64,000 nucleotides of DNA from Cladocopium goreaui (lineage: Eukaryota > Sar > Dinophyceae > Suessiales > Symbiodiniaceae): assembly GCA_947184155.2 (NCBI GenBank), contig CAMXCT020000278.1:1-64000 (forward strand). Reading direction: 5' to 3'. The notes beneath the pieces are model-generated. The model did not search any database. It saw only the letters and a list, made by a program, of their open reading frames with translations, and was not told the origin of the DNA. Positions 15,482 to 48,541 of the stretch are shown one piece after another (the first letter of the stretch is position 1; every line of letters begins with the position of its first letter). Made by a program: the position numbers and the translations under genes.

Positions 15482-16171
15482 ATGGATCCAGGTAATGTGA
15501 GCCAAGGTGTGCAAGGATGTCCTAGTCCTGGTATGGCTGAAAGAGGTGAAGGAAATGGTGGTTGTAACCGTGGAGACGGATTGCCACCTGGCACCGGAAA
15601 TGGTGGTTGTAACCGTAGTGACGGATTGCCGCCAGTGCCTAGAACGCCTAGTCAGCAAGGTAGTGGATCTGGGACGGATGGACAAACACCTGAAACAAGT
15701 AACATGCTCCAGCAGCAGCCACAGCAACAACAAGCAAATGTGTCACAGAACGTACAGGGATTTGCGAGCACGACAAACCTGGATGCAAGTGGTCAAGGGT
15801 ATCCGGTGCAGGGATGTCAACAAGGAAACATGCCCGTAATGCAAGGACAAGGACCAGCATGGTTTGGTGCGCAATGGATACCCCAACAACAAACGTTTAT
15901 GCAACAGAATTCGCAAGCGTGTGTGCCAAGTTTTGGTTGTGCGAGTATGCCTGGTGGACCAAGGTCTGGAAGTTTTCCAAACTTAGGAGTGAACCCAATG
16001 AGTTGCCAAGGAAACATGTCGAGTGGCCCGGTTGGAGCGAGCTTGGGAGGTTTGACGCCTCAGGCGGCGCAGATCCAAGAGGTCATGGCCATGTTAGGTA
16101 GCATGAGTGAGGGACAGCTACAGACAGTGCAGCAGCATATGCAAGATCGTTTTGTAACTATGCAACAGAGA
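15482..16171 (+). CDS. gag: Copia gag, N-terminal part
   Basis: This is 230 codons from the first ATG after the primer site. The sequence is rich in Gln, Gly, Asn and Pro, with a 45-bp tandem duplication (about 15551-15640) that repeats GNGGCNR. The last part (QEVMAMLGSMSEGQLQTVQQ) looks helical, as expected for a Gag N-terminal region. The frame hits a stop only because YR-1 begins at 16172; joining 16171 to 24881 restores an open Gag frame (RGVPEVFVDG). It should bind and package the element RNA in cytoplasmic particles. Confidence 0.7.
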
Positions 16172-16271
16172 GTTTAATGTACTTGTTCATTGTGTTTTGC
16201 AAGGAACTTCTTTGTGTTTCTATTCCATTTTGGCTCAAGGACTTTCATTTGTGCGTATACATTTTTCGTTT
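16172..16271 (+). repeat. YR-1 repeat A1
   Basis: This 100-bp left end of YR-1 is identical by eye to 24301-24400. It carries the spliced-leader relic (16225-16239) and an 18-nt block (16235-16252) whose inverse complement lies near the right end of B (24278-24295 and 24858-24875). Confidence 0.85.
16225..16239 (+). promoter_or_regulatory. Dinoflagellate spliced-leader relic
   Basis: CCATTTTGGCTCAAG equals the last 15 nt of the 22-nt dinoflagellate spliced leader. Known relics in retroposed dinoflagellate genes are often this same truncated form. It lies 54 bases inside the element, so it probably marks an ancestral trans-spliced 5' end. Confidence 0.75.
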
Positions 16272-16415
16272 TTGTCTGCTCAGCCAACAGTTTTCTTTGG
16301 ACATCTGTAGCAGGCATTGACATTGATCAGTTGCGTTTTTCCTGTCGTGCAGATATTTTCAGAGTTTCATGTTTTTTCGTTTTGGATTCACAGACACCGG
16401 GCGGTCCCGGGCGGC

Positions 16416-16697
16416 ATGGACGGAGCGACGGTCTCGGTGTTATCACTAGAACAGTTGATTACTGCACTTCTCCTCATTGTCAACGAGTTGTGCCATCGAT
16501 TTCGTATCCCTTTATCTTCAGCATCATCTGTACCATTACAAACTACACCTGATTTGGAAAATCTTTCAGGGTCACCCATCCCCGAACGTGGATCGTGTGG
16601 TGCAAAGTGTCGCTGGTGTGATTTACCCTGTGGACGTGCAAAGCCTGGTCATACAGGGCATAGTTGCTATACACATCGGCATTGGCGTGATGGATAA
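16416..16697 (+). CDS. Small Cys/His-rich leader ORF of YR-1
   Basis: This is 93 codons from ATG 16416 (MDGATV). A hydrophobic helical N-terminus (LEQLITALLLIVNEL, then RFRIP) is followed by a cluster C-GAK-C-RW-C-DLP-C, then H-TG-H-S-C and a final HRHW. The same two-part layout appears in YR-3 (35761-35985). Its end overlaps the ATG of the YR gene by eight bases, suggesting coupled translation. Alternatively it could be the first exon or frame of the YR protein. The function is unknown; zinc binding is likely. Confidence 0.55.
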   Translation: MDGATVSVLSLEQLITALLLIVNELCHRFRIPLSSASSVPLQTTPDLENLSGSPIPERGSCGAKCRWCDLPCGRAKPGHTGHSCYTHRHWRDG

Positions 16698-18804
16698 TTC
16701 CATGGATGGTTGGTCACTGGTACAGAGTGTTGAGGGTTCATGGGACACGAGTTCAGTGATTTCACCGCCGTTGCATTCCAGGCCGAAGTCTGCTCCATTG
16801 CAGCGTGCACCTCTACATCAAGGTCCTCGCCTGGTGTCTCCCTTCCAAGTGTCTGCATTGCATCCGGTGGTCACGAGCACTATGGGGTGTTCGGGACAGT
16901 CTTCAGCTCAGCGACATCCAGGTATCCTGAGGGTTTCAGATTTAAACCAGGGGGGTAATGTTCCCCCCCCCCATCCATTTCCTGTTGATTCTATTCGCAT
17001 TGTACCTGGGGTTACTCCTTTACAAATTCCCCCAGAAAATTTACCTGTGATTCGGAGCTGGACGACGTTGCAACAGAGAGTTGCGCTACCTCAGCCTCAA
17101 GGATGTTTGGGTTATGCAGAGTCAGTACCAGTTGATTTTGTGCCTAATAGGCCTTCTCCAACGTTACTGCATCCTCCCAGACGTCAATCCGGGGCTATTA
17201 GCAGAGTTCGTTTTTCCAGTGCTTCACCGGTGCTCTGTCAGATGTGGTTTGAATTGTTATCACAGCTGGGCCCACTATCCAGAATTTGGCAAGAGACGAG
17301 TATGTCACAGCATCAACGTATGCATTTGAACCGAATTTTGGACAATGTGGCACCTGGCACGGCTATGAAGTATATTTCCAGTTGCAAGTCCTTTTTCAAG
17401 ACCTGCAAAGCGTTACAGGTGGATTTGATATCCCTTACTGAGGTTCAATTGGCAGACATTTTAATCACAATGTCACTGTCTAGATCTACATCTCATGGCA
17501 GTAGTTCTTGCAGTTCGGTCATCAAAGCGCTTCGATGGCTATTGAAATCAGCAGAGGTGGGTTGTTTACAGGTGGTGCATTCAGTTCTTATTGGAACCTT
17601 TCTGAACCAGAAGGTGCCCAGGGACAGGAAACAAGCACCTCCTCTGCCTCTGTGGGCATTGGTGCAGTGGGAGCGTCGTGTGCTCATGTCCAACTGCACG
17701 GTATTGGAAACTATTTTACTGGGTACATTTTTATTGATGGCCTGGGGATCCCTTCGTTTTTCCGACGCGCAAAGGTTAGACCTCCAAAAGATCATCTATC
17801 ACGATGGTACCATGAGAGGGGTGATATGGCGCTCCAAGACAGCAGTCAGCGGCATGCCCCTAGCAGTGGCGGCGGAGGGTTTCCTCAGCAAAGGCTCCCA
17901 CAACTGGTTGTGGAAGTTCTTGACCGTTTTGGATACGGTATTGGCCAAATCAGGCCTCTCTGATGTTGATTTTCTTCTTCCACTGATGGACGAGGATGGA
18001 CCAACTTATCCATTGCAACCGATGGACTATGCCACAGCGTTATTTTACTTACGGAAATTTTTGGGTTGCCCATGGAGTCAAAGGCCAGATCCCTTGCAGC
18101 ATTTGAAGTTAAACTTCACTTTGCACTCCCTCAAAGCGACGTTATTGTCGTGGGGACCGCAGCTGCATGAAAAGGTTACCCCGGAACAGCGTTTGTCTCA
18201 GGGACACCATTCGGATCCCAATAGCAGTTTGGACACATACTCACGTGACGTGGTGTGGACGTCCTTGACGTATCAGCGCAAGATGATACAAGAGGTTCAG
18301 AGTGGATGGCGTCCAGCCATTGCCCAACATCGGGGTAGTCAGGCTCCTATGGTCGAACCCAAGGTTGTTTTGGAGAAATTTGTCAAATCTCTCCCGCAGT
18401 TTGATTTTCAGTGGTTTCAATTCAATGCGTCCTCTGAGACACCAGCTCCAGATTTTTTGGAGTCATCGACCAGCAGTTCTGAGAGTTCATCGGATTCATC
18501 GTCGGATGACGAGGTTATGGAGCCTCGACCCAAGACTTCCAAGGTGAACGTGGTACCTTTGGATGTCGATGAAGTCCTGGTGGGACGATATCGATCAGTT
18601 GTGCATGCACTAGTGCGCGCCGGCGATGATGAAGATTGGCGTCCTCGGTGGCACGGACAGCCTCTCAAACCTGCCTGTGGTAGGCAAATGCGTGGTGTGG
18701 CAGCCGAGATCTTGGATAGACTCGACTCGACTATGCCGTTCTGCCAGCATGCAGCATGCAGGAAGGTTTGGCACACTTGTCAGCTCCTGCAAGGATCTGG
18801 ATAG
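16690..18804 (+). CDS. YR-1 tyrosine recombinase
   Basis: This is 704 codons from ATG 16690. The frame is open further upstream, but that part overlaps the small Cys/His ORF. Catalytic landmarks are Arg in WGSLRFSD (about 355), HSLK in place of H-x-x-R (about 479), GHH (about 504) and Tyr in DTYSRD (about 517). A Ser-rich acidic linker follows, then a C-terminal block with CGRQM and FCQHAAC that recurs in altered form in YR-2 and YR-3. The protein should join circular element DNA to the target in the nucleus. No frameshift is seen. Confidence 0.85.
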   Translation: MDNSMDGWSLVQSVEGSWDTSSVISPPLHSRPKSAPLQRAPLHQGPRLVSPFQVSALHPVVTSTMGCSGQSSAQRHPGILRVSDLNQGGNVPPPHPFPVDSIRIVPGVTPLQIPPENLPVIRSWTTLQQRVALPQPQGCLGYAESVPVDFVPNRPSPTLLHPPRRQSGAISRVRFSSASPVLCQMWFELLSQLGPLSRIWQETSMSQHQRMHLNRILDNVAPGTAMKYISSCKSFFKTCKALQVDLISLTEVQLADILITMSLSRSTSHGSSSCSSVIKALRWLLKSAEVGCLQVVHSVLIGTFLNQKVPRDRKQAPPLPLWALVQWERRVLMSNCTVLETILLGTFLLMAWGSLRFSDAQRLDLQKIIYHDGTMRGVIWRSKTAVSGMPLAVAAEGFLSKGSHNWLWKFLTVLDTVLAKSGLSDVDFLLPLMDEDGPTYPLQPMDYATALFYLRKFLGCPWSQRPDPLQHLKLNFTLHSLKATLLSWGPQLHEKVTPEQRLSQGHHSDPNSSLDTYSRDVVWTSLTYQRKMIQEVQSGWRPAIAQHRGSQAPMVEPKVVLEKFVKSLPQFDFQWFQFNASSETPAPDFLESSTSSSESSSDSSSDDEVMEPRPKTSKVNVVPLDVDEVLVGRYRSVVHALVRAGDDEDWRPRWHGQPLKPACGRQMRGVAAEILDRLDSTMPFCQHAACRKVWHTCQLLQGSG

Positions 18805-18981
18805 ATCCTATTCCAAGCGGTATGAAAAATTTTGCGCTTGGAGTTTTCGCCCACGGGTCGGTGACCTGTTGGGTGCAGTTGGTCTTTCCCTGGTAGGGTT
18901 AACCGAGTAAGTCCATATTGGGTATTTTTTGCGTTATTTTCCCCTCTTTTTACTTAGGGAGGGATTCAGATTCTTGTACAA

Positions 18982-19260
18982 TAGGGGATGGTATCCCCTA
19001 ACATGTCAACGGTGTTGGCATCACATTTCAACCGGTGGTTGAAGGGTTACTCACGGTGTGAGTTGAAATGACAGGTTGTCATGTTATATTCAACCGGTGG
19101 TTGACTATGGACTCACGGTGTGAGTACCACAATGACCGGTGGTCATTCAGCGTCTCAACCGGTGGTTGAGGTTATTGCTCACGGTGTGAGTCTTACATTG
19201 ACCGGTGGTCAATTCATCATTTTTCAACCGGTGGTTGAAGCAGCACTCACGGTGTGAGTG
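18982..19260 (+). repeat. Array of 13 short dyads, each centred on GGT
   Basis: Thirteen inverted repeats with stems of 5-8 bp and a constant GGT centre lie at 18982, 19003, 19027, 19049, 19068, 19090, 19111, 19131, 19154, 19178, 19197, 19223 and 19244 (starts). Examples are TAGGGGAT-GGT-ATCCCCTA, TTCAACC-GGT-GGTTGAA, ACTCAC-GGT-GTGAGT and AATGACC-GGT-GGTCATT. From 19027 three stem types rotate in order with a period of about 63-69 bases. Stems vary, but both arms change together. The array lies between the YR stop and the Gag start. Confidence 0.9.
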
Positions 19261-19516
19261 ACGTGCTATATCGTCATGGTTGCCGTCGGGGATGGCTCGA
19301 GTGAACCCGGTGGGTCAACAATCAGTTGTGCAACAACATGCACTTATTTTAGGGGTTGCACTATGGAGTATCCACCCCTTTCATGGTTGGTCTAACGTCC
19401 AATGGCGCTGTCAAGATTTTATTTTGCAAGTTTTTACTTTTCCCCTCAACATAAGGGATACTGTTTGTGGTTCGTGGATCATCAGCTATTTTGTCCTTTG
19501 TCTACGTGGTGGTGCC

Positions 19517-20707
19517 ATGGCGTCTGACAATTTGGAAGATGTTTTGATACAGAGTGGGGTGGACTCGGCCCTCACGAGCTCACTTATGATGGAGGGATGG
19601 TCCTGTCAATCGTTTCGCATGGCAGCCGCTGACATTCATGGATTTGAAGATGTTCTCCAGGAATGGTCATCTTCTACTCCTTTGTCGGTATTCCAGAAAG
19701 CATGCCTCCGCACGGCCTTTCAGTCGCTCCAACCTCAACAAGGACCTAGTGCATCGGCTTTGTCCACCCCAACAATGAGCACTACCACTCCAGCCGGGTC
19801 GTGGGCAGAAGCTTTTCCTCCCAAATTGGAGAATGCCGTGTTGCAGGCGATGAAACAAAAATTCATGGCCAACTATCCATCGGAGTTGATCCATGCAGAC
19901 CTTTTTCCATCGACCAGATTAGTGAGCTTGGTTCATGACCAGCTCTCCAAGAAGGTTTGGAAATGGGTGCCATGGAAGTATCGCATCTCGCTCACCAGGT
20001 CAGAGGAGATTTCTAGCAATCGAGCTCAGAAGATGCCAAAAATTGACCACCTGGGGTTACACTCCTTATTATTTGATGATCCTCCCTCCATCGACGTGTC
20101 CAACAACGCCATGGGGGTGAACTCGATTCGCAATATGCTCGAGGTTCATGATCGTGCCATTGCCTTGTGCCAAGGCGCTCACCTCGCCAATCTCAAGGCC
20201 TATACCCACAAATTCATCGGGTTTTTGACCGCCAAGTATGATGGAGACTTACGTAACCCCAGTGTATTGGAGGCTCAACATGCAGACCAAAAAATTTGGA
20301 CGGTCATTGCCGAGCTCATGGAACGAGGATGGAACATGGATGATTGCTTGCATGAAATGACGAATTTACGTCATGACCTACCAAGTCTCCTTCAACCACG
20401 ACCTCGCGTGTTCAAGCCACTCCCATCACCATCTTCTCAGACAGCTTCCCCTCGTGGTGATGGACCGAAAGGCAAAGGCCAAGGGAAGTCAAAGGGCAAG
20501 CAGAATTCCGGGAAGTCCAAGGGCAAGGTCCAATGGCTCACGGAGATTCAACGGGATGGTGGTTTCAAGCAACTCTGCATGCGATATCAGGTGGGCAAGT
20601 GTCAGACTCCCAACTGTGGCTTTCAACATTTGTGTGCGTGCCCAGTTGATGGAAAAGCTTGTGGCAAAAATCATGGGGCGATGTCCCATTTTGCCACCCC
20701 GCACTGA
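19517..20707 (+). CDS. gag: YR-1 Gag-like protein with CCCH finger
   Basis: This is 396 codons from ATG 19517 (MASDNLEDV); the frame is open upstream to 19280, but the start after GGTGCC gives an N-terminus like those of the YR-2 and YR-3 Gags. It has a helical SAM-like N-terminal domain, a middle domain, a basic Gly-Lys-Ser tract (KGKGQGKSKGK), then the finger C-x7-C-x4-C-x3-H (CMRYQVGKC...FQH) and more Cys. It should bind element RNA. It ends at TGA 20705-20707 in the context CAC-TGA-C, and pol continues in the same frame. Confidence 0.75.
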   Translation: MASDNLEDVLIQSGVDSALTSSLMMEGWSCQSFRMAAADIHGFEDVLQEWSSSTPLSVFQKACLRTAFQSLQPQQGPSASALSTPTMSTTTPAGSWAEAFPPKLENAVLQAMKQKFMANYPSELIHADLFPSTRLVSLVHDQLSKKVWKWVPWKYRISLTRSEEISSNRAQKMPKIDHLGLHSLLFDDPPSIDVSNNAMGVNSIRNMLEVHDRAIALCQGAHLANLKAYTHKFIGFLTAKYDGDLRNPSVLEAQHADQKIWTVIAELMERGWNMDDCLHEMTNLRHDLPSLLQPRPRVFKPLPSPSSQTASPRGDGPKGKGQGKSKGKQNSGKSKGKVQWLTEIQRDGGFKQLCMRYQVGKCQTPNCGFQHLCACPVDGKACGKNHGAMSHFATPH

Positions 20708-23700
20708 CTCCCCAAAGGGGATAGTGACCCAGGTTTCACCATGCATGATCCATTCAATGAGATTGACTCCGTGGAGACTCTCCCAGTGCATGAAGTGGAC
20801 CCAGTTCAAGACTTTGCCCCACCTAGTGATAGTTTTACCCGGGGCCGTTTGTCCCAACCCGAGCAGGCGAATGCGGAAACAGATATCACTGCCACCGTCC
20901 CCATCACAGCGGAATCCTTGGTTTCCTCTACGTCAATTCCACCAACCATTTCAACTTCAATTTTAAAAACAGTTCCCTCAGGCAAATTTTTTCTCGATGT
21001 TTGTTCAGGTGTTACACGTCCGTTGTCGACAGCTGTATTGGAGCATGGCCACTCAGTTCTTTCTTTTGATGTTTTATTGGATTCGTCTATGGATATTTTA
21101 TCAGATGCGGCCTATGAGGATTTGTTGCGTGTCGCATCCAGTGGTCAGGTTGGTTATGGAGCGGCCAGCCCTTCCTGCTGTGAATATAGCAGACTCAAAC
21201 TTCGAAATGATGACGGTCCCAAGGCTCTACGATCACCAGAGCACTTGTCCGGTCTGCCCAATCTCACACCCTGGGAACTGCAACGTGTACAAGAGAGCTT
21301 TATGATGCTCTCTCGCTGTGTCGAGGTCCTCATGCTCTCTCGCTGTGTCGAGGTCCTCACCCTGGTTTTTCAAGCAGGCGGGCACGTCCATCTTGAACAA
21401 CCCTTGAACGCCATGTCATGGTTAGAGAAGGTAGTACGCCAATTTCTGCAATTGATTGGGGCTTCCTGTATCAACGTGGCAGCTTGCGCCTATGAGATGG
21501 ATGTTTACAAAGCCTGGATGTTTGCCTCGAGTTTTACAGGTCTTCGACCATTAGGCTGCATTTGTCAACATCCCCCTAATTCTCATGTTCGCCTTCAAGG
21601 TCTCCGAGACGATTCTGGTGCTTTTGCCAGTCGGGCGACGGCACAATACCCACAGAAACTGGCACAATTATTTGCCAACCTCGTGGCCCCATTACTGGAC
21701 ACATCAGCGTTGGACCTACAATGGTCATCTTTGGATGCCCTCATGCCAACCAAGCACCTGCCAGAGTATCCATTTGCGCAAATCGATGGGGGTGGAGCTT
21801 TTTCCCACCCGGACTGGAGTCAGGATAATCGTCAAGAACACGACTGGTTCAAGATGCTCCGCACTTCGTGGATGAACAGGATCATCTCTGAGCGATTGGA
21901 TAAGATCCTACTTGCGCATGTGGCGTCGGGCAACCCTTCACCTCCTTTTTCGATGGAAACTCTGACTCCATTCAAGGATGATCTGGAGAAATTCTTGGAG
22001 GCACATGGACATACACCAGATTGGTCAGTTCGACAACATCAACCAATACATCTTCATATTTTACATTCTTTACAAAAGATTATGCATGACGTCGATTTTA
22101 CATTATTACCCAGTTTATTGGAAGGTGTTCGAACTGGTTTTTCCGAGGCAATTCCTCCGTCGGGTATTTTTCCACCCAAAGAACGTACGGATATAGAACC
22201 CGATCCATTGTCAGCTCACCTCTCCAACTGGCAGAGTGCTGAAGAAGATCTACCATTAACCCGAGAACTGGTTCAGGAAGAAATTGACAAGGGATGGGTT
22301 TTTTCATATCAAGGTTCTTTGGAAGAAGCACAACAAGAATATCCGGCCGGAGTTGCTATTGGAAAATTGGGAGTGGCTCGCTCTGATAGTCGAGCCCCCC
22401 GATTAGTTGTAGACTCCAGCGTATGCGGCCTCAACGGTCGGTGTATCATACCGGAGAGGTCCACCCTCCCGACTGCCAAGGAGGTGTTACGTAGCTACCC
22501 TCTACGTCAGTGTCAGAGGAATCTAATGGGATTTTCTTTAGACGTTAAGGCTGCTCATAAAAGAATAGTTCTACATCCGGACGAATGCGGATTGGTAGGC
22601 TTTTCGTTAGAAGGACAGCTCTTCTTCTATAGAGTTACCCCATTTGGTGCAGTTTTCTCTGCCTTTTGGTGGGCGAGATTGGGTGGACTCCTTCTCCGTA
22701 TATTTCACCATTTGATCTGGTTGAGTCACACGGGATTTCTATATGTGGATGACTTCTTATTCTTTATGGAAGCCAACATGATGCCGCTGTCAGCCACATT
22801 GTTGTGTATTTTTTGCCAGCTTTTGGAAATTCCTATCAGCTGGAAGAAGACGGCCATGCACTCTTCCATTGACTATATTGGCTGGAAATTCAATTTCAAT
22901 GCAGGTATCGTGACAATCCCCATTGAAAAGATCCTCAAACTCCGAGGATACATCGAACATCTTATTTCCCAGCCACGAACTACTCGCAAGTCTTTGGAGA
23001 AACTTATTGGCCTGGCAATGTGGATTACTCAATTATTTCCCCTCATGCGGATCTGGATCCACTATTGGTACCACGACCTCTACACCATCCCGGCGACACA
23101 TTTCAGTATTGATGCTGGTACATGGCCTCGCATTCATCAATATTTAACACCTAATTTGACTTTTCATACAGCACCTTTGGGCTCCGCTATACCTATTTCA
23201 GGCAAGCTTATTGCAGTTCGACATCAAGCGGTATCCTCATTGGCGGATCTGACATTGTTACATATCAAAACGGATAACAGGATTTGGCTCAGGATTATCA
23301 ATCCGAATTCCTCCAAACGCAAGCTTCGTCCTGATTCTCTTCGCATTTTGAAGTTATTTGAACATTGGCTGATGGGTGTTTCTCCATCTCGACCAATGAG
23401 AGCGAAGCCATATTGGAATGGCGTTGCGGCAGCCGATGCATGTGCATCGGGTTCCTATTGCCAAATTGGAGGTTTCATCCGTCATCCTTCAGGAGTTCAA
23501 TTTTGGTTTTCTGAGAAATTTTCCCATGCTGATTTTGACACTTTGTCAATTCATTTAGACCCAAATATGCAACGAAGCATTGCTTCTTTTGAAACTTTAG
23601 CCCAAATTGCTTTAGTTTGGCTGGTGGCCACATCTTGGTTTTCGTATTCCGATTTGTGTGAAATCCCTGAGCGACAATACGGGAGCAGAGAGCGTGAGCA

Positions 23701-23990
23701 ACAAATTATTCACTACGACTCATCCTCTATGTCTCTTTGTCGAAATCCTCACGTGCCTGGCTTCGACAACTGGTATTGAATTGGATGTGAGCCATATTCC
23801 TGGCGCGGACAATGTCATAGCGGATGATCTGAGCAGATGGGATTTTTCCACTCCCATCCCACATGAATTTCAACCAAGTGAAAGGATTCATCTTTCACTC
23901 AATCAACTATTTCGTTGTTTACCTCAACCAACATTGCATCCTCCTGATTCAAAACTTCTTTGGAAACTCCCACATCCTCTTGTGATGTGA
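20708..23990 (+). pseudogene. pol: YR-1 Pol: methyltransferase-like, RT, RNase H (one frameshift)
   Basis: The frame continues from Gag past one UGA; an ATG also exists at 20741. First comes a domain with FLDVCSG (motif I-like), SPSCCEYS (motif IV-like) and LEQP (motif VI-like), resembling cytosine-5 methyltransferases. A 27-bp in-frame duplication (MLSRCVEVL twice) lies within it at 21305-21358. Reverse transcriptase follows with LDVKAAHKR and YVDD (near 22743), then an RNase H-like region (AAADACASG). A frameshift near 23665 moves the tail (SDNTGAES, ADNVIADDLSR) into another frame that stops at 23990. Otherwise intact, so recently active. Confidence 0.8.
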
Positions 23991-24062
23991 TCTGCTGGAA
24001 TGGTTCTCACTTCTGGTTTGGGCGTGTTTGGGCGATAACCATTATACCAGATAGTTGTTGTT

Positions 24063-24300
24063 TGGGTTGTTGATGCCATCTGGTCAAATGGTTTCGATTG
24101 AAGTATGGTCGAATCCAAACTGGATCCAACAGTGGGACAAACCATCCAGCAGATGAAAAGGGAGTGCGTTCTGAGATCGGAAGCGAGACATGGTCAAGCG
24201 GGAGGATTGAAGTTTCAGTTGTTTTTTGTGTTTTGGTTTGTTTGCGTTTTCTTTGCGGTTTCTAGATCTTGTCTCAAACAAATGAAAGTCCTTGAAGAAC
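24063..24300 (+). repeat. YR-1 repeat B1
   Basis: This 238-bp repeat recurs at 24643-24880 with one substitution seen (GAAGTATGG against GAAGTGTGG). It adjoins A2 directly, as the split-direct-repeat plan requires. Its end carries the 18-nt inverse complement of the A repeat. Confidence 0.85.
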
Positions 24301-24400
24301 GTTTAATGTACTTGTTCATTGTGTTTTGCAAGGAACTTCTTTGTGTTTCTATTCCATTTTGGCTCAAGGACTTTCATTTGTGCGTATACATTTTTCGTTT
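24301..24400 (+). repeat. YR-1 repeat A2 with second spliced-leader relic
   Basis: This is a copy of A1 with the relic at 24354-24368. A C-rich linker follows (24401-24642). Together with B1 it reconstitutes the junction expected in a circular intermediate. Confidence 0.85.
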
Positions 24401-24642
24401 CCCTCCCTCCCTCACCTTGTTCTCAATTCTTTACCACTATTGTATCAATAGTTCGATCTAGCTGTTTCACCCCATTTCTCTCATTGCTGTTCCGACTTTT
24501 GTTTCATCTGTGAAGCCTTTGTGCTCCTGGTTCTTTACAGTGCGTTGCACTAACAAACCGAGTGACGTGATGTCACGTTCAGTATTGTGACTGCTTCTAT
24601 GGCAATGCACAATCGTGCATCGGTGATGTCATCTCACCCGAA

Positions 24643-24880
24643 TGGGTTGTTGATGCCATCTGGTCAAATGGTTTCGATTGAAGTGTGGTCGAATCCAAAC
24701 TGGATCCAACAGTGGGACAAACCATCCAGCAGATGAAAAGGGAGTGCGTTCTGAGATCGGAAGCGAGACATGGTCAAGCGGGAGGATTGAAGTTTCAGTT
24801 GTTTTTTGTGTTTTGGTTTGTTTGCGTTTTCTTTGCGGTTTCTAGATCTTGTCTCAAACAAATGAAAGTCCTTGAAGAAC
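24643..24880 (+). repeat. YR-1 repeat B2 (right end)
   Basis: This copy of B1 forms the right end of YR-1. Copia gag resumes at 24881 in the frame left at 16171. Confidence 0.85.
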
Positions 24881-27017
24881 AGAGGGGTTCCAGAAGTGTT
24901 TGTTGATGGTCTTGGTAGGGCAGCTGATTCGTCGTTTGTGACTCCGCAGCCATTTGATGTTTTGCTTGGTTTTGGTGTTCAACAATCAAATCATGGAAAT
25001 TCACAGCAATTGGATGTCTTCGCCAAAAGCGAAAAATGGTTGACACCGGCACCAACACCAGTAGGAACTTGGAAGACAAGAGAAGAAGAGGTGTTAGGTT
25101 GGGCTGGCTATTTGGATGAGTTGTCATCCAGGGCAGCTGGTGGAAGCTTAGAATTTTCTGTCAAAATCCAGCATAGTAGGCGTTGGCCCGGTCCTATCAG
25201 ATGGAGTGCTCTCAGTGGAGCACAACAGGCAAGGTCTCGAAGGCTTATGTCCATCTTAAAAGCTGCGTTTCACGACAACCCCAGGTGTGTGGCGTTGGTG
25301 AACGCCTTCAGTGAGGGTGTGGCATTACATGGAGTAGGATCTAGTGACAGAGTGGCAGTGGCAGTAAACCAACAAGCAAACGGGTTTGAGCTGCTTAGGC
25401 AACTTACTCTTGAATTTTCTCTGAGGTCAAGATCCGAAGCGCTCTCACTAAGGACGCAGATTGCAGGGAGATCCTTTGTCCTGGCGGCGACACAAACATC
25501 GCCGAGTTCCTTGGTTAGTGATACTATCAGAAGAATTGATTATGAAGCCGCAGGGTTTCAAGGTTGCTAGGAACTCTCCCTATGCAGGTGGACACCACAG
25601 GACTGAAGCTGGCAGACTCAGACATGCTAGTTGTTCTGTTGAAAAGCCTGCCTGAAACAGCGAAGAATTATGTCCTCCACCACAGCGGCGCAGACAACTA
25701 TGAGTCTTACCGGAACGCTGCGATGCGGTGGGAAGAGCAACAACGCCTGTTCAGTGATTTCGAGACAACAGGTAACAATAAGAAAGTGAACTCTCTGGAG
25801 GGGAATGCAGAGAACCATTCCTTTGATGAGTTCGGCGTCGACGCGGTAGAAGGCCGATGCGGGAAGTGCGGAAGCAGAAGGCACACGCAGGATCTTGCAC
25901 CGCGGACGTCAGTAAGATCAGATGCTTTCGATGTGGGAAAGCAGGACATGTCAGTTTCAATTGCCCTGAGAATGGAAAAGGTAAGGGAATTGTAAAATCT
26001 GACACGTGGGACAAGAAAGGTTCCAAAGGAAAAGGCTCTAAAGGTAGCAAAGGGAAAGGAAAGAAAGGCAAATTGAATGAAGTTTCAGAGGATTGGACCG
26101 ACTGGACTGCTGAGAGTTGGGACGATGGTGACTATTGGTGGCATGACCAATGGCCGGAGAGCTGTGATGGTCAATGGGGAGTTTCGCAGACATGGTGGGA
26201 CGATGGTTCTGGATGGTATGGCGACGGGTATGGATATACCTGGCAACAGGGACCAGTCCAAAGTGCGGAACCGAGTGCAAGTCACGACAATAGGTCTGAT
26301 GTCCAAAGGACTGGCAGTGTCGGCAGCATGATCATAAATCCTTTGTTGTATGATTTGACATGTGAAACCACTGGAGGTCTTAGGTTTGTGCATGAGCATG
26401 AGTTTGCTGACATGGAAACCGAAAATGGGCTTGTGGTTGATTGCAAAGACTTTGAAAGTGAACTGACTGACATGGGTTGTGTGCTGGCAAGAGGTTGCGA
26501 CAGCTGTACTCATGAGTCAGAGTTTTCAGAAGATGAGCCGACTGACACGGGTTGTGTGCTGGCAAGAGGTTGCGACAGCTGTACTCGTGAGTCGGAAGGA
26601 GTGAGAAGTGAACTGGCTGACATGGGTTGTGTGCTGGCAAGAGGTTGCTGTACTCTTGGGTCAGAGTTTTCAGAAGATGAGCTGACTGACACGGGTTGTG
26701 TGCTGGCAAGAGGTTGCGACAGCTGTACTCGTGAGTCGGAAGGAGTGAGAAGTGAACTGGCTGACATGGGTTGTGTGCTGGCAAAGAGTTGCGACAGCTG
26801 TACTCATGAGCCATGGTTTTGTGGTTTGAAGTTTGGAGATGAAGTTGGACTTGGTGATAGTTCCAACTTAGAAACACGTTTTGTTAATGACCCCAGCCGA
26901 GACTTGTGTGCCACTGTACCGATGAAAGTCGTTTTGGTGCGTGCACATGATTGGTTTGACGAGCACAGAGAAGTTTCGGTTGAACAACAGATTAAACCTT
27001 ATTTCACAGGTCGCTGA
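24881..27017 (+). pseudogene. gag: Copia gag, second part, with two zinc knuckles and 25-residue repeats
   Basis: The central Gag domain (EKWLTPAP, FELLRQLTLEFS) is followed by a frameshift near 25560, a segment with LPMQVDTTGLKLADSD, and another near 25900. Two CCHC knuckles, C-x2-C-x4-H-x4-C, lie close together: CGKCGSRRH and CFRCGKAGH. A Lys-Gly-rich tract, a Trp-rich acidic region and five 25-residue repeats follow. A third frameshift near 27010 separates this part from the protease. All breaks look like single-base changes in an older element. Gag should coat the RNA in virus-like particles. Confidence 0.75.
26469..26815 (+). repeat. Five tandem 75-bp coding repeats in copia
   Basis: Units start at 26469, 26544, 26619, 26688 and 26763. 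Each encodes a cysteine-rich block (GCVLARGCDSCT). The third unit lacks six bases. Two alternating linkers (EFSEDE and EGVRSEL) show that a two-unit block was duplicated. Confidence 0.85.
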
Positions 27018-28397
27018 CAACACTGATGCTTCTTGGTGGCTTCTTGACTCTGGTGCATCTACAAGTGTTTTGGCTGAGTCGAACTTGTCAGCCTTCAGGT
27101 CAGTGCTGCAGGACAGTGAGGGGTTAGGTGGCTACAAAGCTGCCAATGGATCCTCAGTCAACATGTCAGGCACTGCTGAGATTGGAGTACAGATGCACAT
27201 GTCAGGCACATCAGGTGATGATTGGTGTTGGAAAAAGGCACGTTTGAATGTTTTGGTGGGTTCCATCCGGCACAACATTTTGTCAATCACTTCATTGGCA
27301 GATTCGGGATGGAGATTCACACAAGGTCCAAAAGGTTTTGATTTGTTTCATGAGAAGCTTGGAATGCATTGTCTTGATGTTGCATATTTTGCCAATTGTC
27401 CTTGGGTTCGTTTGTGTCCAGATGTTGGTAGTAGTAGTGCATACAGGTCTGACTTGACTGTGAGTAATACTCATGACTTTTCTGTCGCAGCTGTGTCTGG
27501 AGGAGACGACAATGAACTGGCACGTCACCGGAGACAGGGACATATTCCATTCAATCCGAATTGCTTGGAATGTGCCAAAGGTCGTTCCGTTTTTCAGCAC
27601 AGAAGAGACAAAGGTGACAGGAAAGAGGTTTCAATTCAGGCCGATTTTGCATTCCTCAATACAACAGGTGAGATCGTTGCAGACGAACTTCCAGGTTCTG
27701 TGAAGATCCTCGTGTTAACTGAGATGATGTCGAGGTGCATTGGCTATGTGGTGGTTGGAGAAGATGTCGAAGCAGCCAGGAGACAGATTGTTGTATGGCT
27801 TCAACATTTTGGCTTGACTTCGAAGGCAGTCTCCATTGATGTCCACACCGATAGCGAGAGGGCCGTGGGAGAGATCATTGGAAATTCCACTGGTCGATAC
27901 ACGTTCGCTATTCGCAGAGCCGCGCCACAGCAACATCGATCAATTGGGTCGGCTGAGCGAGCAGTTAGGGAATTAAAAGAATCCTTTTCTGTATTAAGAG
28001 CTGATCTGAATGCACAAGGGTTGGATGTCACGTTTTCACATGAGAATTTGGTTGATGTTTTGACGTATTTGGCTTTGTGCAACAACCATTTTTCAACATC
28101 GAGAGGTTCAGACAGAAGTCCATTGGAAATGGTTTCAGGAAGGAAGTTATCCAAACCAGTTTCGACTTTGTTTGGTGCTCAGGTTCTGGCCGAAATTCCT
28201 GATTCAATTCGGCAGCATTCACCACTTTCAACAAGGAATGTTGAGTGTACTTTCATTCACATGGGATTGGAACGAGGTCCAGTTGTGCAGGGTCTCATTC
28301 GTGTGGATGGCAAAGCTGAGTTGATGCGTTTTGTAGCTAGGAACATCAGGGCTATTTCACCTTTGAGATGGGATTTGAATTCGGGACAGGTGTTTTG
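27018..28397 (+). pseudogene. pol: Copia protease and integrase
   Basis: It starts with an aspartic protease (WWLLDSGAS near 27040). A zinc-binding region follows (HRRQGHIPFNPNCLECAKG, an H-x-C-x2-C arrangement) and an integrase core with IQADFAF, HTDSER and a Gly-Ser-Ala-Glu-Arg segment that would supply the third acidic residue. The frame is open from about 26960 to 28397, then breaks. Integrase should insert the double-stranded cDNA into the nuclear genome. Confidence 0.8.
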
Positions 28398-31300
28398 ACG
28401 CAGTTTGACACTGGGACTGTAGGTAGTAGACCCCAAATTGTGAATGACAGTGGAACTGCACCAGCTGATATGAGTCAGCTACCTCCTGAAGAGTTGCGAA
28501 AGTTGAAAGGTCAGAGTTTGCCGGCACCTTCACAGCCCAAACTTGTCTTGCCAGAGTCCAGCAGTGTGAAGAAGAAATCTGGTGAGTTGCGTTTGGCGCC
28601 AGCAGTGCCGTTAGCAAGATCGAATGTTGTCGTGACTCCACAGGAAGTTCCAGCAGAGCCGTCTCGAGTTTCTGTCACTCCATCTCCTACGTCACCAGCA
28701 GATACTGCAGATGTAGCCATTGGTAGTCCTGAGAGTTCTGAAAGAACTTCACCTGACGTATCACGTTTTGAACCGACTCGTCGATGTCCAGCATGTGAGA
28801 GTGGCATGGAAGCACCTGGTATTAGGCACAATAAGGAATGTAGAAGCGTTTTTCTGAGTTTGAGGAACAACGGAGAAAGGAAAGGCGTGTTGAACCTGCA
28901 CTCTCTCCGGAGAGCCCTGTAGTTGTACCCCAGGTTCAGGTACCAGTGCAAGAGGTCGATGATGATGATGTGGTACCAACACCTGAGTCCGCTCGGCGAC
29001 AGCCGGAAACACAGGTTGAGTACACTAGAAGGTTTAAAAGGAAAGCTGAGACCGACCGAGAACAGTTGGAAAGAGAGATCCGTGAAGATTCTGAGGAACT
29101 GCTTCAAACAAACATGGATTTTGATTGGTTTTGGGTTGGTAGTGGTGAACCTGTGTTGGTTGCGAGTTTGGGTACACTTGAAGGTCCAGCGTCTTTTGTT
29201 CCGGCAACATCTCCAGAAATGTTTTCTGGTTCTCTTGATTCTGTTTGTTTCAATCGAGGCAATGAGCATGATTCTGTGAAGATGCGTCTTGGAGGTCAAG
29301 ATGTCTTAGTTTGGAAACCGGACAGTATCATAGATGACCAGAGTTTGCAAGAGCTTGATTTGGAACAAGGTTTCAAAGGTATGCAAGAGGAGGTTAGGAA
29401 CTTGGAACACTGCAAGACTGGCCGCATCATCACCCAGTCAGAACTGGACGATATGAAGAAGGCTGTTCCGAACCTTCGTTTGATCCAGTCGAGGTGGGTT
29501 GCAGCTTACAAAAGCAGTGAGAGGGTTCGAACCAGGATTGTTGCGAAGGACTTCAATCGTGGCTCCTCAGTTAGATCTTTGGGATTTAGTAGTCCGACTC
29601 CTTCGATTGAAAGTGTTCATTTGGTGCTTGCAATGGCAGCGACACGGAAGATGCTTTTGCGTGCATTGGACGTGAGTCATGCCTTCATGCATAGCCCATT
29701 GGGAACTGGTGTACATGTTGTCTTGAAAATGCCGTTGCCGATTAGCTTTCCATCAGGTGAAGCGACCTACTATTTGCTTGAAAAGGCATTGATCGGGTTA
29801 CGTGATGCTTCACTGGCATGGTTGCAGCTTTTGACATTTACGGTTGAACATGTAGGCCTTTGGTCTGATTCGTTGGAACCGTGTGTGTATGGTGGACAGA
29901 TTGTGAAAGATGGTCATGAACTTGGATTTTGCTTGTGTGTAGTGTACGTTGATGACATCTTGTTGTTGTCGACCACTATGGAAGCCGAGGAACATGTGGT
30001 TGCAACTTTGTCGTCTGTAGTGCCTGTGAAGACAACTGGAGAGATCGGAGAAGAGGGAGGATCCCTGACCTTTATCGGTCGTGTCATCAAGAGAGAAAGA
30101 GATTCCTCTGAGATCACTCTGGGTGTTGATGCACATTATCTTGACTCTACGTTTCTGGATTATGGTGTGACCCGTGGGTCTGAGAATGTTCCTGACATTT
30201 CAGGACATCTTGAGAAAACACTCACGGATAGCAACTTTCAGAAACCTTTGTCAGATGAAGCATACTCACGCTTCAGGAAGGCGTTGGGAAAATTGCTTTG
30301 GTTATCACAGGCGCGTCATGACTTGAAAACATGGATGTCTGTTCTTGGAACGCAACAAGCGAAACCTATGCACGGGACTGAGCAAGCATGGAAAGCAGTC
30401 TTGAGATTCTTGTATGTTGACATGCATGCATGCTTGTGTCTACCGAGCAGAGATGAGACCATCATGAGTCAGGTTGACGATGCTCAACTGAGATCAGTCC
30501 ATCTCCACTCTTTCAGCGATGCATCACATGCGCCGTATCGTTTCAACAACCGCAAAGGTGTTAGCGGTGGAGCTGTTTTCTTTGAGAGGTCTTTGGTAAG
30601 GTCTCTGAGCCGACAGCAGCAAGCTTTGAGTCTGAGTTCATGTGAAGCAGAGCTCTATGGTTTGCAATCTGTGTGTCAAGAAAGTGTTGCGTTTGGAAGA
30701 TTGGTTCACCGTCTTCTTTTTGCACTTCATGAGATTGATGAGCCAGAAGAAGTTGTGATTTGGCTGGAGAGCGATTCAAGCTCCGCATTGCAACTTGTGA
30801 GATCCATGGACGTGCCACGACGTTCGCGACATATTGAGATAAGATTGCATTGGTTACGAGAGCAGATGAGAGAGGGTTTGTTGAAATTGAGACACAGAAG
30901 TGGTGTTGAAAATCCAGCAGATCTTTTCACTAAATGCTTGAGTGCTAAAGCTTTCTATAAGCACCGATATGCTCTTGGGATTGTTGTTCCAGATGGTTTG
31001 ACAGCTGAGTTAGCAGAACTTCGTGAGCTGTGTGTGTTGCAGCAGGTGTTGACTCAGGGTTCTTCAATTGCGATTGTAGAACTGTGTTGTTCGGAACATT
31101 CGAACTTGAGAAAGGTTTGTGAAGTTTCAAAGGTCCCATACATTGGTGTAGTTGCTAAGGTGCAGAGTTCTGGAACGTTGAGTCGTGTAGCTGTTTGCAT
31201 TCGACAGTGGAAGAACTCGTCATGTCCACCTTGGGTGCATATTCATGCATCGACTCCTTGTGGAAGTGGAAGTCCGCTTCGCAATTTCAATCCGGACTCA

Positions 31301-31508
31301 GTCACTGAAAAGGATCAGGAATGGGATGAGATCATCAACGCGATTGGTGGTTACTTCAAACATGCAGACTCATGTTCGTTTGAGCTTCCAGAACGAAATA
31401 CCATTTGGTCCCGACCTGAGACAGTGAATCTTTTGGAAAGTTTTGACATGAGGCATGAGGCTTTGGTGAGGTTGTGCAAGACTGGATTTCAGAACAAGGA
31501 TGGTATTC
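28398..31508 (+). pseudogene. pol: Copia RT, RNase H and C-terminal methyltransferase-like domain
   Basis: After frameshifts near 28397 and 28915 the frame is open. The RVT_2-type reverse transcriptase shows RTRIVAKDFNRG, ALDVSHAFMHSPL and YVDDILLL (near 29950). RNase H shows FSDASHA, SSCEAELYGL and NPADLFTKCLS. After it comes an unusual domain with IVELCCSEHSNL (motif I-like), STPCGSGS (motif IV-like) and FELPERNTIW (motif VI-like). YR-2 cuts the frame at 31508; it resumes at 48891 for about 14 codons (IPIGKTLKFVS) and ends near 48932. Confidence 0.8.
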
Positions 31509-31981
31509 GCACTCGCGACTTGTTGCGACTGTGTATTTGTAAGTAAGTAACCTGTTGTATTGGTCCGGTTCCTGACCTTTACGCGGTTACCGGTTCTCCC
31601 CTTGGTGTACTCTCCCTCTACGCGATCCTCCTGGTTTGACGCGTTGCGTTCTCGTGTGCACACCGGTATTGCGGAAGTCTTTGTGTGCACTCGGAAGTTA
31701 TGACCTGGAAACACAACAGTTAGTAAAACCTAACTTGCAACAAAGAAAATCTGAAAGATTCAGTTGCCCTGTTTCCTGGTCCGGTCTTTTTGGTTTTGTT
31801 TTTTATGTTTCTTGATTTCACGGAAGATGAAATCACAGATTGGGAAATTGGAATGCTTAAACGTTTTGACATACACAAGGGTTATGTCAACGGTTTTTTG
31901 TACATGTGAACACTTTGAATTCTTTGAATGTATGTTACATCAGTGGATCAAAGATGAAAGGGTTGGAGCAAATTTTTGTAG
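31509..31981 (+). repeat. YR-2 repeat A1
   Basis: This 473-bp left end matches 48051-48524. Its 3' part overlaps the open frame leading into the YR gene, so A2 carries a duplicate of that region. A block with TAAGTAAG (about 31538-31552) is inversely related to the end of B. Confidence 0.85.
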
Positions 31982-34040
31982 TTCTCGTTCTCGGCGTTGC
32001 CCAGACTTCTAGAAGTCTCATGGCGGAGGACAGAGTTGGAGCCCAGGTGATACAACTGCTTAGTGCCAAGGGTTTGACCGGCAAGAAGCTAGCTGTTTTC
32101 AACTTGGAAGATGCAGATTCCATTGCAACACAGGTATGCAAGGATTTGGGAGTGATTTGTGGGATGCAGCATGTGCATGTTGTGAAACGTTTGATCAGGG
32201 AAGCACACTTGGCCGAGCCCATCGCCAAGCGTCTGCGTGGAGACGATAGCCTGGACCCTTTGCATTTTCAGTTGCTTGTGGATAGGGCTTCAAACTTACA
32301 GACAGGGAACAGAACTACAGTGGTTTCACCAGTTGATGAATTTTTGGAGTCAGATGTTAGGGCTTCTCGTAGGGCAGCACGTCATGCAGAACCATGTGAA
32401 GAAAGGTTCAAAAAGGAAGCAGGTCAGAAAGAATTCTGGTCACGTGAACTCTATAAAGAGTTGAAACGTATGGGAGCGCCGGCCTTGGAACATTTAGAGC
32501 ATTGCGTCAGTGAATCACACATTCATTTGGCATTGGCTGGACGGACACGTTACAGCACTTTGAAGAGATATATTAAATGTTGGAGATCCCTTCAGCAATG
32601 GCAGACTGCAGTCAGGGGCAATGCAGGTTCACCGGAAGTTGGAGACCTAGTTGAATATATCTTTTGCAGATATGATGAACCTTGTGGACCGACTGTGCCA
32701 CCTCTCATTGTGAAGGCTGTAGTTTGGATGGAGAGGACAGCATGCTTGGATGTCCGTGCCCGGATAGGAGATTCACACGTTGTTGGATCTGTTAGGGACT
32801 ATGTGGTCGAGATGCTCTCCAAGGATTCAGCACCCACAAAGCGTGCGCCTCGGTATCCAGTGGTCATGATGGAGTCATTTGAACATGTTGTTGAAGATGA
32901 GAGCCAACTATTGGGCATCAGAGTGATTGCATGGATCAAGTTGGTAAAGCTCTGGGTACATTGAGATGGGATGATGTGCAGAAAATGATCCCAAAGGAGC
33001 TCAAGTATTTTGGAGGCAGAATGACAACGGTTTTGAGGACAACAAAAACCACAGGACCAACAAAACGGGTCCGAGAGCTGCCGGTCTGTATCTCAGAGCA
33101 TGCTTACATTTCAAATCAATTTTGGTTGAAGACGGGATTTGACCTGCTCAAAAATGATGTTGCTTTCGACAGAGACTATTTGCTGCCGAAGTTGAACAGT
33201 AATTGGACAGGTTTTAGAAAGGTCATGGCCACATACAACGACATCAGCTCCTATTCTGCTTATTTGAGAAGAAAGATCAAGAGGCCAGGTCAGGATGAGT
33301 TGATTATCCATCCGACGATGGCTGCGTTTTGGACGGAGCACTCAGAGAGGGCGACGTTGCCGACAGGTTTGGCATTGCTGCGGGCGCCTAAGGAAGAGAG
33401 AGACATGCTGGGACGTTGGAAACCCGATGGTTCAGACACTTATCTGCGTATGTACAATGGAGTGGTCAGCCGACCCCAATTGCAGTTTGCAAAGGCGGCT
33501 AGGACCAATGAGCGTTCCAGCACATTGGACGAGAGGGACATACTTGAGAGTGCGATGTCTTGGATCACTGATAGGTGTGAGCCGTTGTCAGATGAGAGGG
33601 TTCAGATGATACTGAAGCATTTGCAGAAGTCCATGGAGTGCAAAGCAATTCAGGGTTGGCAGACTGTGGAGGAAGATCAGCAGGAAGAAGATACGCTCTT
33701 TGGGCCGCTGACCGAAGAGATAGAAGAGGTAGAGGCAGTGGACACAATCAACGCGGTTGAGCGTAAGGAACCACGACTGCCAATGTTTGTAGTGGTCAAC
33801 AATGGTAGCAAGTGCAGACGTTTACACAAGAGCCGTGGAGGCTGTTGGATGGGTAGAGAGATGAACTTCAAGTCGTCTGTGGAATTCAACACACTGCCAA
33901 ACCCTGAGGAGTATACACATTACTGCAAGGTTTGTTGGCCAAAGACAGGGCCTGATACGAAGTCAGAGGTTTCATCATCATCTTCATCAACTTCCAGTTC
34001 CAGGAGTGCCAGTAGTTCTTCCAGTCGAGAGAGCGAATAG
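31906..34040 (+). pseudogene. YR-2 tyrosine recombinase (one frameshift)
   Basis: The open frame starts at 31906, inside A1; ATG 32020 (MAEDRVG) lies just outside A1 and is a good alternative start. A single-base loss near 32955 (LW to GTLRWDD) shifts the frame; otherwise the protein is whole. Catalytic landmarks are Arg in GTLRWDD, HSER (a full H-x-x-R), GRWKPDGSDT and Tyr in DTYLRMY. The C-terminus has a Cys/His block (CWMGREM, then HYCKVCW) followed by a long Ser-rich tail. Compared with YR-1 and YR-3, this enzyme keeps the second catalytic Arg. Confidence 0.8.
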
Positions 34041-34506
34041 CGCGCTTGAGAAGGGATCAGTCCCAAAGGGGCCGGTGGATCCGAAGCCTGTCAAAGACAG
34101 CAGGAAAATGTTGCAGTGGCTGCAACCGGTGAAGATGTTGGTTTGTGTGTCTGTTTTTGACTGATTTTTTTTGCTTCTGAAGATGTCTTGAATCTTGTTG
34201 TCTTGAATCACATTGTATTTTGGGGAAAAAGCATCGATGAGATGCCGTGAGATGAGTTAGGTTTGAGGAATCCGCAGATTTCTCCGGAGCATCGGTTCAG
34301 CAAAAGCCGAGGGTTAATCATGACATAGTTGGAAGCAGGTTCAATTTACTGGAGTTTTTTCTCACGCGTGAAGCCGTGGTTATTGTTTGATTTTGTGGAA
34401 TACTTTGATTTCCTAAATAGATGAGCGAAATACAATTTTCACTGACTTTCAGATTGCAGTGCATTTCGTTTGACAGAACATTTCTTTAGCTGGTAGCTCG
34501 ACTGCG
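34041..34506 (+). other. YR-2 intergenic spacer
   Basis: No gene is seen between the YR and gag. Several short inverted repeats are present (for example GGGA-TCAG-TCCC near 34057), but nothing like the GGT array of YR-1. Confidence 0.5.
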
Positions 34507-35238
34507 GTGAACATGGCTGCACCAGAGCAACTGGCCTTGGAAGAGGCTCTCAAAAAGGGGAGCTCAGATTTGAAGTTCACGTTGACGAGAAACGAGGTTT
34601 CAGATGAACTGCAAGCAGCTTTTTATAGGAATGGGGTTACAACTATTCCGAAGGTCTCTTCATTCTTTCGTTCAGAGGATGACTTGGTGACTGTCCTGAA
34701 GGAATCCTTCAACACGGATTCAGATCACAGTTTGGCTGATAGGTCTCAGGTTGCGTCAGTGATTTGTGCGTGGCGTGAGACGCAGACTCGACAGAAGAGA
34801 CAGATAGAGGTTGAAGCAGAGATGGATACAAGAGAGTGGACAAAGCCCATTCCTACAGGTGACTATATCAACATGAGAAATGCATACATGAAGGTGCATG
34901 GAAAGATTGAAGATAAGGTTACTCCGTCAAAGGAGTATCTGGAGAAAAAGTTACAGGAACTTGAAAACGGCGAGTTTCGGGCGGAGACCATGGCCGAGGT
35001 GGTGTCGAAGGACGAGGTGGATCCTGATGTGATGATTCCCATTTTTGATTCAAAGGGAAGCCTTTCTGTCAAGCGGGGATCAACAACTATACCACTTCCT
35101 ACAGGGCCTGAACAGTTGAGGCGCAGGTTGACTGTCATGCTGAATGCCATTCTCATGCTTGCTTTGAAACATACGAATCGTGAGGAGATTCAAGATGTGT
35201 CACGTGATTTGTTTGAACGTTACAAGGACTACATCTTG
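34507..35238 (+). CDS. gag: YR-2 Gag-like protein, part 1
   Basis: 244 codons start at ATG 34507 or 34513. The N-terminal helical domain (VSDELQAAFYRNGV) resembles the SAM-like start of the YR-1 and YR-3 Gags. YR-3 is inserted after the codon for Leu in YKDYIL; the frame resumes at 44054 with GDYVWG, with no base lost or gained by this alignment. Confidence 0.75.
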
Positions 35239-35757
35239 TAGAGGCTCAGCGTGCTGATCCTGCTGTTTCTTAATACTCGGCGCAAGGTCTTTGACCTGAA
35301 GCGTACATGTTGGTTAAGGGTGTTGACCGGGGGTTGTGCATTTGGGTTGTGTGGCATTATCTGAGTTATGCGTCGTACCGTCTTGTGCTGTGTAGTACAA
35401 CTGTTTGAATCTAGAGATTCCTCTAGGGATTCAATCTGACTTAACTTTTTGTGTAGTGTTGGGTTCCTTTGTTTGCTAGGGATGTTTGTGAAACAACCTT
35501 CCCCTAGGTGATACGTTGTGCCAACCTTTAAATATTTTCGGTGCTTCTGTGATCAATACTGAAGATCAGAAACGGTGACACAACATGATAGGAACCACGA
35601 AATTTTTAACACCTCATTATTTAAATGATGTCATCTGATTTCATTTCAGAAGTGATTCTGAAGATGTTTTCTTCATCGAAATTTTTCAACCCAAACCAGG
35701 GAAGGGTGGGAGGGTGCTCTTAAAATTTTGAGCACTGACATCAACGATTTTTGCTCT
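35239..35757 (+). repeat. YR-3 repeat A1
   Basis: This 519-bp left end is repeated at 43134-43652. The block GTTTCTTAATACTC (35265-35278) is nearly the inverse complement of the B end GAGTGTTAGAAAC. Confidence 0.9.
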
Positions 35758-35760
35758 TTG

Positions 35761-42738: not shown

Positions 42739-42763
42739 TGGTTCTGTGACGGCTGAAACGATA

Positions 42764-43652: not shown

Positions 43653-43683
43653 CCCGCCCAAATGTCTTGTAGCCCACCCTGAG

Positions 43684-47674: not shown

Positions 47675-47701
47675 CTCACCGATGGCCGTCCTCGATACTT
47701 A

Positions 47702-48524: not shown

Positions 48525-48541
48525 CCCACCCTCCCACACCG

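Follow-up and report, generated by a model that had tools for sequence, protein, structure and literature searches.

What does a mobile element gain from a row of inverted repeats (dyads) that all share one centre, GGT, and differ in their arms, and is such a row read as RNA or as DNA? This is the question raised by a locus in the window analysed here, a stretch of 64,000 nucleotides of the dinoflagellate Cladocopium goreaui (contig CAMXCT020000278.1, positions 1 to 64,000). Judging from the sequence, the array is far from a product of chance and is probably a control signal of the mobile element in which it lies.

Identification of the dyad array

The core array (18982..19260, + strand; dyad scan and shuffles) contains 13 GGT-centred dyads, with centres at 18991, 19012, 19035, 19056, 19075, 19097, 19118, 19139, 19162, 19184, 19205, 19231 and 19252, that is, 19–26 bases apart (mean 21.75). 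Twelve of them are perfect, with stems of 5–8 bp and a spacer of exactly GGT, and the longest is the 8-bp dyad TAGGGGAT-GGT-ATCCCCTA (18982..19000, + strand). The remaining one (19003..19021, + strand, centre 19012) has 4 bp, then T:G, then 3 further bp, which makes 8 pairs in + strand RNA; the number of dyads given in an earlier note on this DNA is thus right, and its description of the stems as 5–8 bp holds for all except this one. Weaker 4-bp dyads had been reported by that note at 18856, 18888 and 19305, and we found all three on the + strand, with centres at 18861 (18853..18869; 4 bp, G:T and 2 more bp), 18893 (18888..18898) and 19310 (19305..19315). Outside the array, the window contains 13 GGT- and 6 ACC-centred dyads of at least 4 bp. 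The 13 include the three flankers, and since the other ten GGT dyads predict only about 0.03 in the ~185 flanking bases (a flank picked after the flankers had been noticed), the flankers are probably part of the array.

In 2000 dinucleotide shuffles of the 279-base array, a count suggested in the earlier note, the mean number of dyads was 0.0135 and the maximum was 1. Because the array site had been picked by eye, we also ran a window-wide test of the largest same-centre cluster per 300 bp, which gave 12 in the observed sequence, whereas none of 100 shuffles of the full 64 kb exceeded 2. The note had raised the possibility that such dyads are equally dense in other DNA; they turned out to be scarce in the rest of the window, which has two GGT and two ACC dyads of at least 5 bp and no more. 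Scans with spacers of 0–20 and centres of 2–8 bases found no comparable cluster elsewhere in the window (additional matches with spacers of 5 and 7 come from this same array, with its innermost one or two pairs counted as spacer). No ORF of at least 100 aa overlaps the array, and there are stops in all three + frames inside it.

The host element YR-1 and its neighbors

The array is found in YR-1 (16172-24880), a YR-type retrotransposon with split repeats and the order YR-array-gag-RT, and it lies, as noted earlier, between the recombinase-like and gag-like genes. The split repeats are A1 (16172..16271, 100 bp), B1 (24063..24300), A2 (24301..24400, identical to A1 at 100/100 bp) and B2 (24643..24880, with one difference from B1, 237/238), all on the + strand, giving the A1-ORFs-B1A2B2 layout of the Ngaro/VIPER/SymbioDIRS type. 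With repeats this similar, the insertion is probably a recent one. YR-1 is apparently inserted in a copia-like element (15482-16177 and 24872-28398), whose ORF stops at the left edge of YR-1. The ORFs to the right include a zinc knuckle (zf-CCHC, E 1.5e-5) and a Pol_BBD match below threshold, and a copia-like ORF contains a tandem repeat of about 72-75 bp (26456-26810; GCVLARGC repeats).

The putative recombinase ORF (16477..18804, + strand) has HSLKATLLSW...GHH...TYSRD in common with a second element in the window; the motif HSLK...GHH...Y in the two elements has K where R is expected (R, HxxR, Y). Its assignment rests on these shared motifs and on a weak match to the phrog_1 integrase (E 0.075, in one of the two elements), and there was no Pfam match. 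The YR alignment, used as a profile against solved structures, had no match at E up to 1, and AlphaFold models from two-sequence alignments were unusable (pLDDT 36 for the YR core and 33 for Gag). A cysteine-rich frame (16317-16697) overlaps the start of the recombinase frame.

The gag-like ORF (19517..20707, + strand) starts with MAS and has a C-terminal CCCH-type cysteine cluster. Its frame is open from 19280 with an earlier in-frame ATG at 19292; the related Gag of the second element (26% identity) also begins with MAS, and 19517 was therefore taken as the start. Both Pfam matches of Gag are sub-threshold: zf-CCCH_12 (E 0.16) and MADF, a DNA-binding family (E 0.046; 14.5 bits, cut-off 22). 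No CCHC knuckle was detected in Gag, just the sub-threshold CCCH cluster. The RT ORF (20741..23779, + strand) matches RVT_1 with E 1.5e-6 (28.5 bits, curated cut-off 29.6). There is a perfect 27-bp tandem duplication in this ORF (21305-21359, MLSRCVEVL twice), likely a recent one, and an RNase H-like end (23658-23990) is in a different frame than the RT ORF; this copy may have frame breaks or use frameshifting. We considered the identity of YR-1 with SymbioDIRS-Dnmt3, which has a DNMT domain in Pol, and rejected it, as the Pol ORF gave no DNA_methylase match at E 0.05 and its first 320 residues gave none at E 10, the latter search being limited by the HMMER filters, which drop most weak matches.

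A 15-nt spliced-leader relict, CCATTTTGGCTCAAG, is found inside A1 (16225-16239, + strand) and at 24354-24368 in A2, i.e. in both terminal A repeats. It corresponds to the 3' portion of the spliced leader of dinoflagellates (PMC6050394), in keeping with a dinoflagellate origin of the DNA; relicts in transcripts are reported to start with CCA (PMC6616646). This suggests that YR-1 RNA was once trans-spliced at the relict in the A repeat and then reverse-transcribed.

The window contains two further split-repeat YR elements, E2 (35238-44053), nested in E3 (31508-48890), with split repeats that are 99.7–100% identical. The dyad scan found no array in E2 or E3, and RNA folding of their YR-gag spacers gave z-scores of -2.25 (E2) and 0.24 (E3). 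No relatives were found by protein, alignment or DNA-pattern scans of viral contigs and prokaryotic genomes, a coverage in which absence says little, and the array is known from one copy. Two viral contigs from the DNA-pattern scan lack the array and were taken as chance matches. An Rfam search of 15900-25000 gave six matches at E up to 5, all under the gathering score; mir-4880 (E 0.2) and mir-1911 (E 3.2), which overlap the array, are also below it and were discarded.

Three dyad types in a tandem unit

From 19027 the dyads follow the order A-B-C-A-B-C-A-B-C-A-B, forming a tandem part (19021..19259, + strand) with a unit of 62-69 bases and three dyads per unit (Tandem Repeats Finder reports a period of 62 and 3.7 copies). 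There are four copies each of type A (TCAACCGGTGGTTGA) and type B (CTCACGGTGTGAG) and three of type C (TGAC(C/A)GGT(G/T)GTCA). The rotation of three stem types described before is borne out by the steps between centres, which are 62, 65 and 69 for A, 62, 66 and 68 for B, and 64 and 66 for C. The 15-base A site and the 13-base B site are each identical in 4/4 copies; the C core is identical in 2/3, with the third copy off by one matched pair. The similarity of the linkers is near chance (0.56, as compared to 0.50 for shuffled linkers; 12 comparisons). With cores near-invariant beside such linkers, the dyads appear to have been kept while the linkers decayed. The earlier note had proposed that the pairing rather than the sequence is kept; pairing is indeed kept, but so are the letters of the A and B cores. 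None of the A, B and C cores occurs elsewhere in the window, so they are absent from the element termini and the repeat junctions. Strict helical phasing of the dyads is unsupported (vector length 0.55 at 10.5 bp vs 0.88 at 21.7).

Pairing of the arms and strand polarity

All inner-stem cells (78/78) are paired, and the arms of different types differ at all six inner positions, in line with the idea that both arms change together. The covariation score is 1.128, as compared to 0.268 for shuffled and at most 0.222 for slid controls. Both-sided changes are seen at 6/6 positions, a count that 55 of 500 shuffles also reach and that is biased because the dyads were picked for pairing. This bias is weaker among homologous copies, where, according to the alignment, three of the six inner pairs vary, each time in a way that preserves pairing (the first pair of C is A-T or C-G, the sixth pair of C is A-T or T-A, and the sixth pair of B is A-T or G:T). 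Where stems are first interrupted, G:T outnumbers A:C by 6 to 1 (P 0.26 given the G+T-rich composition). The stems at 19012 and 18861 continue beyond a G:T interruption, for 3 and 2 pairs, respectively, and the stem at 19097 continues beyond a T-C interruption for 3 pairs. The G:T evidence for sense RNA is weak.

The centre has a fixed strand. In 18840-19330 there are 16 dyads of at least 4 bp with a 3-nt spacer, and the spacer is GGT in 16/16, with no ACC or other centre triplet among them. Thirteen of the 16 close with a C-G pair (C-GGU-G in RNA). An invariant centre with matched varying arms and a fixed strand is the reverse of the usual operator.

Predicted folding as RNA or DNA

We folded the array as RNA and as single-stranded DNA. 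For 18840-19330, the + strand RNA has a z-score of -6.22 and the - strand -5.92. If pairs are limited to short spans, the + RNA is predicted to form the row: the mean probability of the 13 hairpins is 0.97, 0.90 and 0.55 with span limits of 25, 40 and 80 nt. Without a limit the + RNA prefers long-range pairs, and the mean probability drops to 0.31 (491 nt) or 0.37 (279 nt), as compared to 0.77 and 0.68 for the - strand as RNA. Single-stranded DNA has mean probabilities of 0.75 (+) and 0.82 (-), and, under DNA parameters, both strands have the 13-hairpin row as their minimum-energy structure (z-scores of -6.46 and -7.96, respectively).

For the + RNA, 21% of 150 permutations of the dyad order and 67% of 150 linker shuffles formed the hairpins as well as the actual sequence. 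Dyad order as an aid to local folding was therefore dismissed (as-good permutations: 21% for + RNA, 13% per strand for DNA). For the - RNA 2% of the dyad-order permutations were as good, which is one of several tests and is not built on here. Predicted folding leaves the choice between RNA and DNA unsettled. The strongest case for a single-stranded reading is the invariant, polarised centre with arms that vary in concert, and that for a DNA reading is the near-complete sequence conservation within each stem type.

Putative splice acceptors around the array

Judged by sequence, there is an acceptor-like site on either side of the array. The first (18934..18957, + strand) is a pyrimidine tract (18/20 pyrimidines) followed by AG, 25 bases ahead of the first strong dyad; among the 4181 AGs on the + strand of the window, only 0.048%, including this one, are preceded by at least 18 pyrimidines in 20 bases. 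The second (19432..19455, + strand) is not outstanding, being one of nine acceptor-like sites in the element with at least 16 pyrimidines. The first ATG after 19455 is the one at 19517 (in GCCATGG), so spliced-leader addition at 19455 would yield a gag mRNA free of both upstream ATGs and the array. Between 18957 and the ATG at 19517 there are 12 other ATGs.

Possible roles of the array

The likeliest reading, which we hold tentatively, is that the array is a row of hairpins in the sense RNA of YR-1, perhaps recognised by Gag in selecting or dimerising the genome. The hairpins would expose a GGU loop in the sense RNA of a YR (DIRS-order, split-repeat) retrotransposon as a cis-acting signal, and they would fold locally during synthesis in the unspliced element RNA. 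Gag of the element would bind several hairpins at a time, and its binding would select full-length RNA, and perhaps pair RNAs, for packaging. With a leader at 19455 the array would be lost from the gag mRNA and retained only in the unspliced RNA or in the recombinase message, following the same logic as a retroviral packaging signal placed behind a splice donor. That the polarised GGU-loop array is a multi-site genome-selection signal, removed from the gag mRNA by spliced-leader trans-splicing and retained solely on RNA bound for packaging, is a more specific proposal, and we consider it doubtful. The sense-RNA reading is consistent with dyad density and same-centre clustering far above shuffles, with a constant centre between variable arms that all pair, with the three variable inner pairs that stay pairable among copies, with local folding of the + RNA into all 13 hairpins under short span limits, and with the candidate acceptor at 19455 followed by the ATG at 19517. 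The polarity (16 GGT to 0 ACC) points the same way, as a symmetric dimer on double-stranded DNA needs none. The C-GGU-G of 13/16 dyads recalls the G-G-U-G loop of SL2 bound by the HIV-1 nucleocapsid (PMC7599994). Several results argue against it: the + RNA folded whole favours long-range pairs, the - RNA and single-stranded DNA hold the hairpins better, and dyad order and linkers give the + RNA no advantage; the stem sequences are conserved within types, which a reader of loops alone would not need; the two other YR elements of the window do without an array; the G:T excess is weak, the more so as the stem at 19097 resumes after T-C; the covariation count is biased by the choice of dyads; and the better of the two sub-threshold Gag matches is MADF, a DNA-binding family, rather than CCCH. 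Moreover, a swap of the HIV-1 GGAG loop barely affected packaging, and the MoMuLV nucleocapsid does not bind isolated packaging hairpins (PMC7599994).

The main rival is an operator or enhancer array on double-stranded DNA, in which dimeric proteins of the host or the element would sit on palindromes about two turns apart, activating or repressing an internal promoter that transcribes gag-RT. We regard it as rather unlikely, although A and B cores identical in 4/4 copies among decayed linkers are what binding sites would give, the 3-bp spacer is fixed, the centres lie 19–26 bases apart (mean 21.75), the array is upstream of gag, and the MADF match in Gag (E 0.046) would fit. Against it, the spacer GGT is the sole invariant part, the half-sites differ between types (though kept within A, B and C), the polarity is 16 to 0, and the spacing is not strictly helical. 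RNA hairpins might instead control expression between the two genes, by ending or stabilising the recombinase message, by steering leader addition (18957 or 19455), or by acting on ribosomes upstream of gag, which would be slowed or recruited. Acceptor-like sites flank the array, with 18957 among the best-scoring AGs of the window, and 12 ATGs would precede 19517 if the leader were added there; such control is nevertheless unlikely in our estimate, since the nearer site, with no ATG up to 19517, lies 3' of the array, so that the array need not be in the gag mRNA, which weakens translation control, and since the two other YR elements manage without an array. We find it improbable that the dyads are sites on folded single-stranded DNA used in cDNA replication, e.g. 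for recombinase recognition or second-strand priming. Both strands do fold as DNA into the 13-hairpin row, and there is a precedent in other recombinases that act on folded DNA, such as the integron integrase IntI (attC), but the A, B and C cores are absent from the termini and repeat junctions. A neutral product of mutation, i.e. tandem duplication plus template-switch repair that perfects near-palindromes, is very improbable. Template-switch correction makes arms match without selection, and part of the array is plainly tandem-duplicated; it would not account for A and B cores that stay identical among decayed linkers, nor for the invariant GGT and spacer length.

Comparison with known systems

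To our knowledge, no signal for RNA choice by DIRS-order elements has been described. Titles and abstracts among the literature matches listed (a search with thin coverage of subscription journals) contained neither such an array nor a DIRS-order RNA-choice signal. Being compact, clearly under constraint and placed just before gag, the array is a concrete place to look for control of packaging, dimerisation or the promoter in these elements. Flanked by acceptor-like sites, it also offers an opening onto how a retroelement copes with obligatory trans-splicing; if true, the genome-selection reading would make it a DIRS-order packaging signal coupled to trans-splicing. YR-1 shares its A1-coding-B1A2B2 repeats with SymbioDIRS, Ngaro and VIPER elements (PMC5890265, PMC8547959). 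DIRS-like elements of Symbiodinium are described with A-coding-B-A-B repeats, divergent RTs and two integrase/Pol orders (PMC5890265). Ngaros have the order gag, RT and YR (PMC8547959), whereas in YR-1 the YR gene comes first, followed by gag-RT. The excerpts of PMC5890265 and PMC8547959 that describe SymbioDIRS and Ngaro types do not mention a dyad array.

The gammaretroviral packaging region sits near gag. Like the gammaretroviral packaging/dimer-linkage region, in which some stem-loops share one apical loop, the array would form multiple stem-loops with a common loop in the RNA of an element that replicates by reverse transcription. Gammaretroviral leaders have conserved GACG loops on separate stems (SL-C and SL-D in MuLV), and in RD-114 dimers arise through a series of palindromic stem-loops (PMC5874298). 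In contrast to these, the YR-1 array has 13-16 predicted hairpins instead of a few, 3-nt GGU loops, a three-type tandem unit and a recombinase gene upstream. The likeness would be functional, with no kinship claimed. As compared to the G-G-U-G loop of HIV-1 SL2 (the splice-donor hairpin), the C-GGU-G of YR-1 has its last G in the closing pair, and the YR-1 Gag has no detected CCHC knuckle. Loops alone need not be the signal, as HIV-1 packaging was not significantly changed when the GGAG loop was replaced, and the MoMuLV nucleocapsid binds a UCUG linker and not isolated hairpins (PMC7599994).

On the DNA side, the array resembles iteron or operator arrays, which have dyad sites at two-turn spacing. 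Both consist of repeated palindromes at about 21 bp, and the YR-1 array differs in having varying half-sites around a constant spacer.
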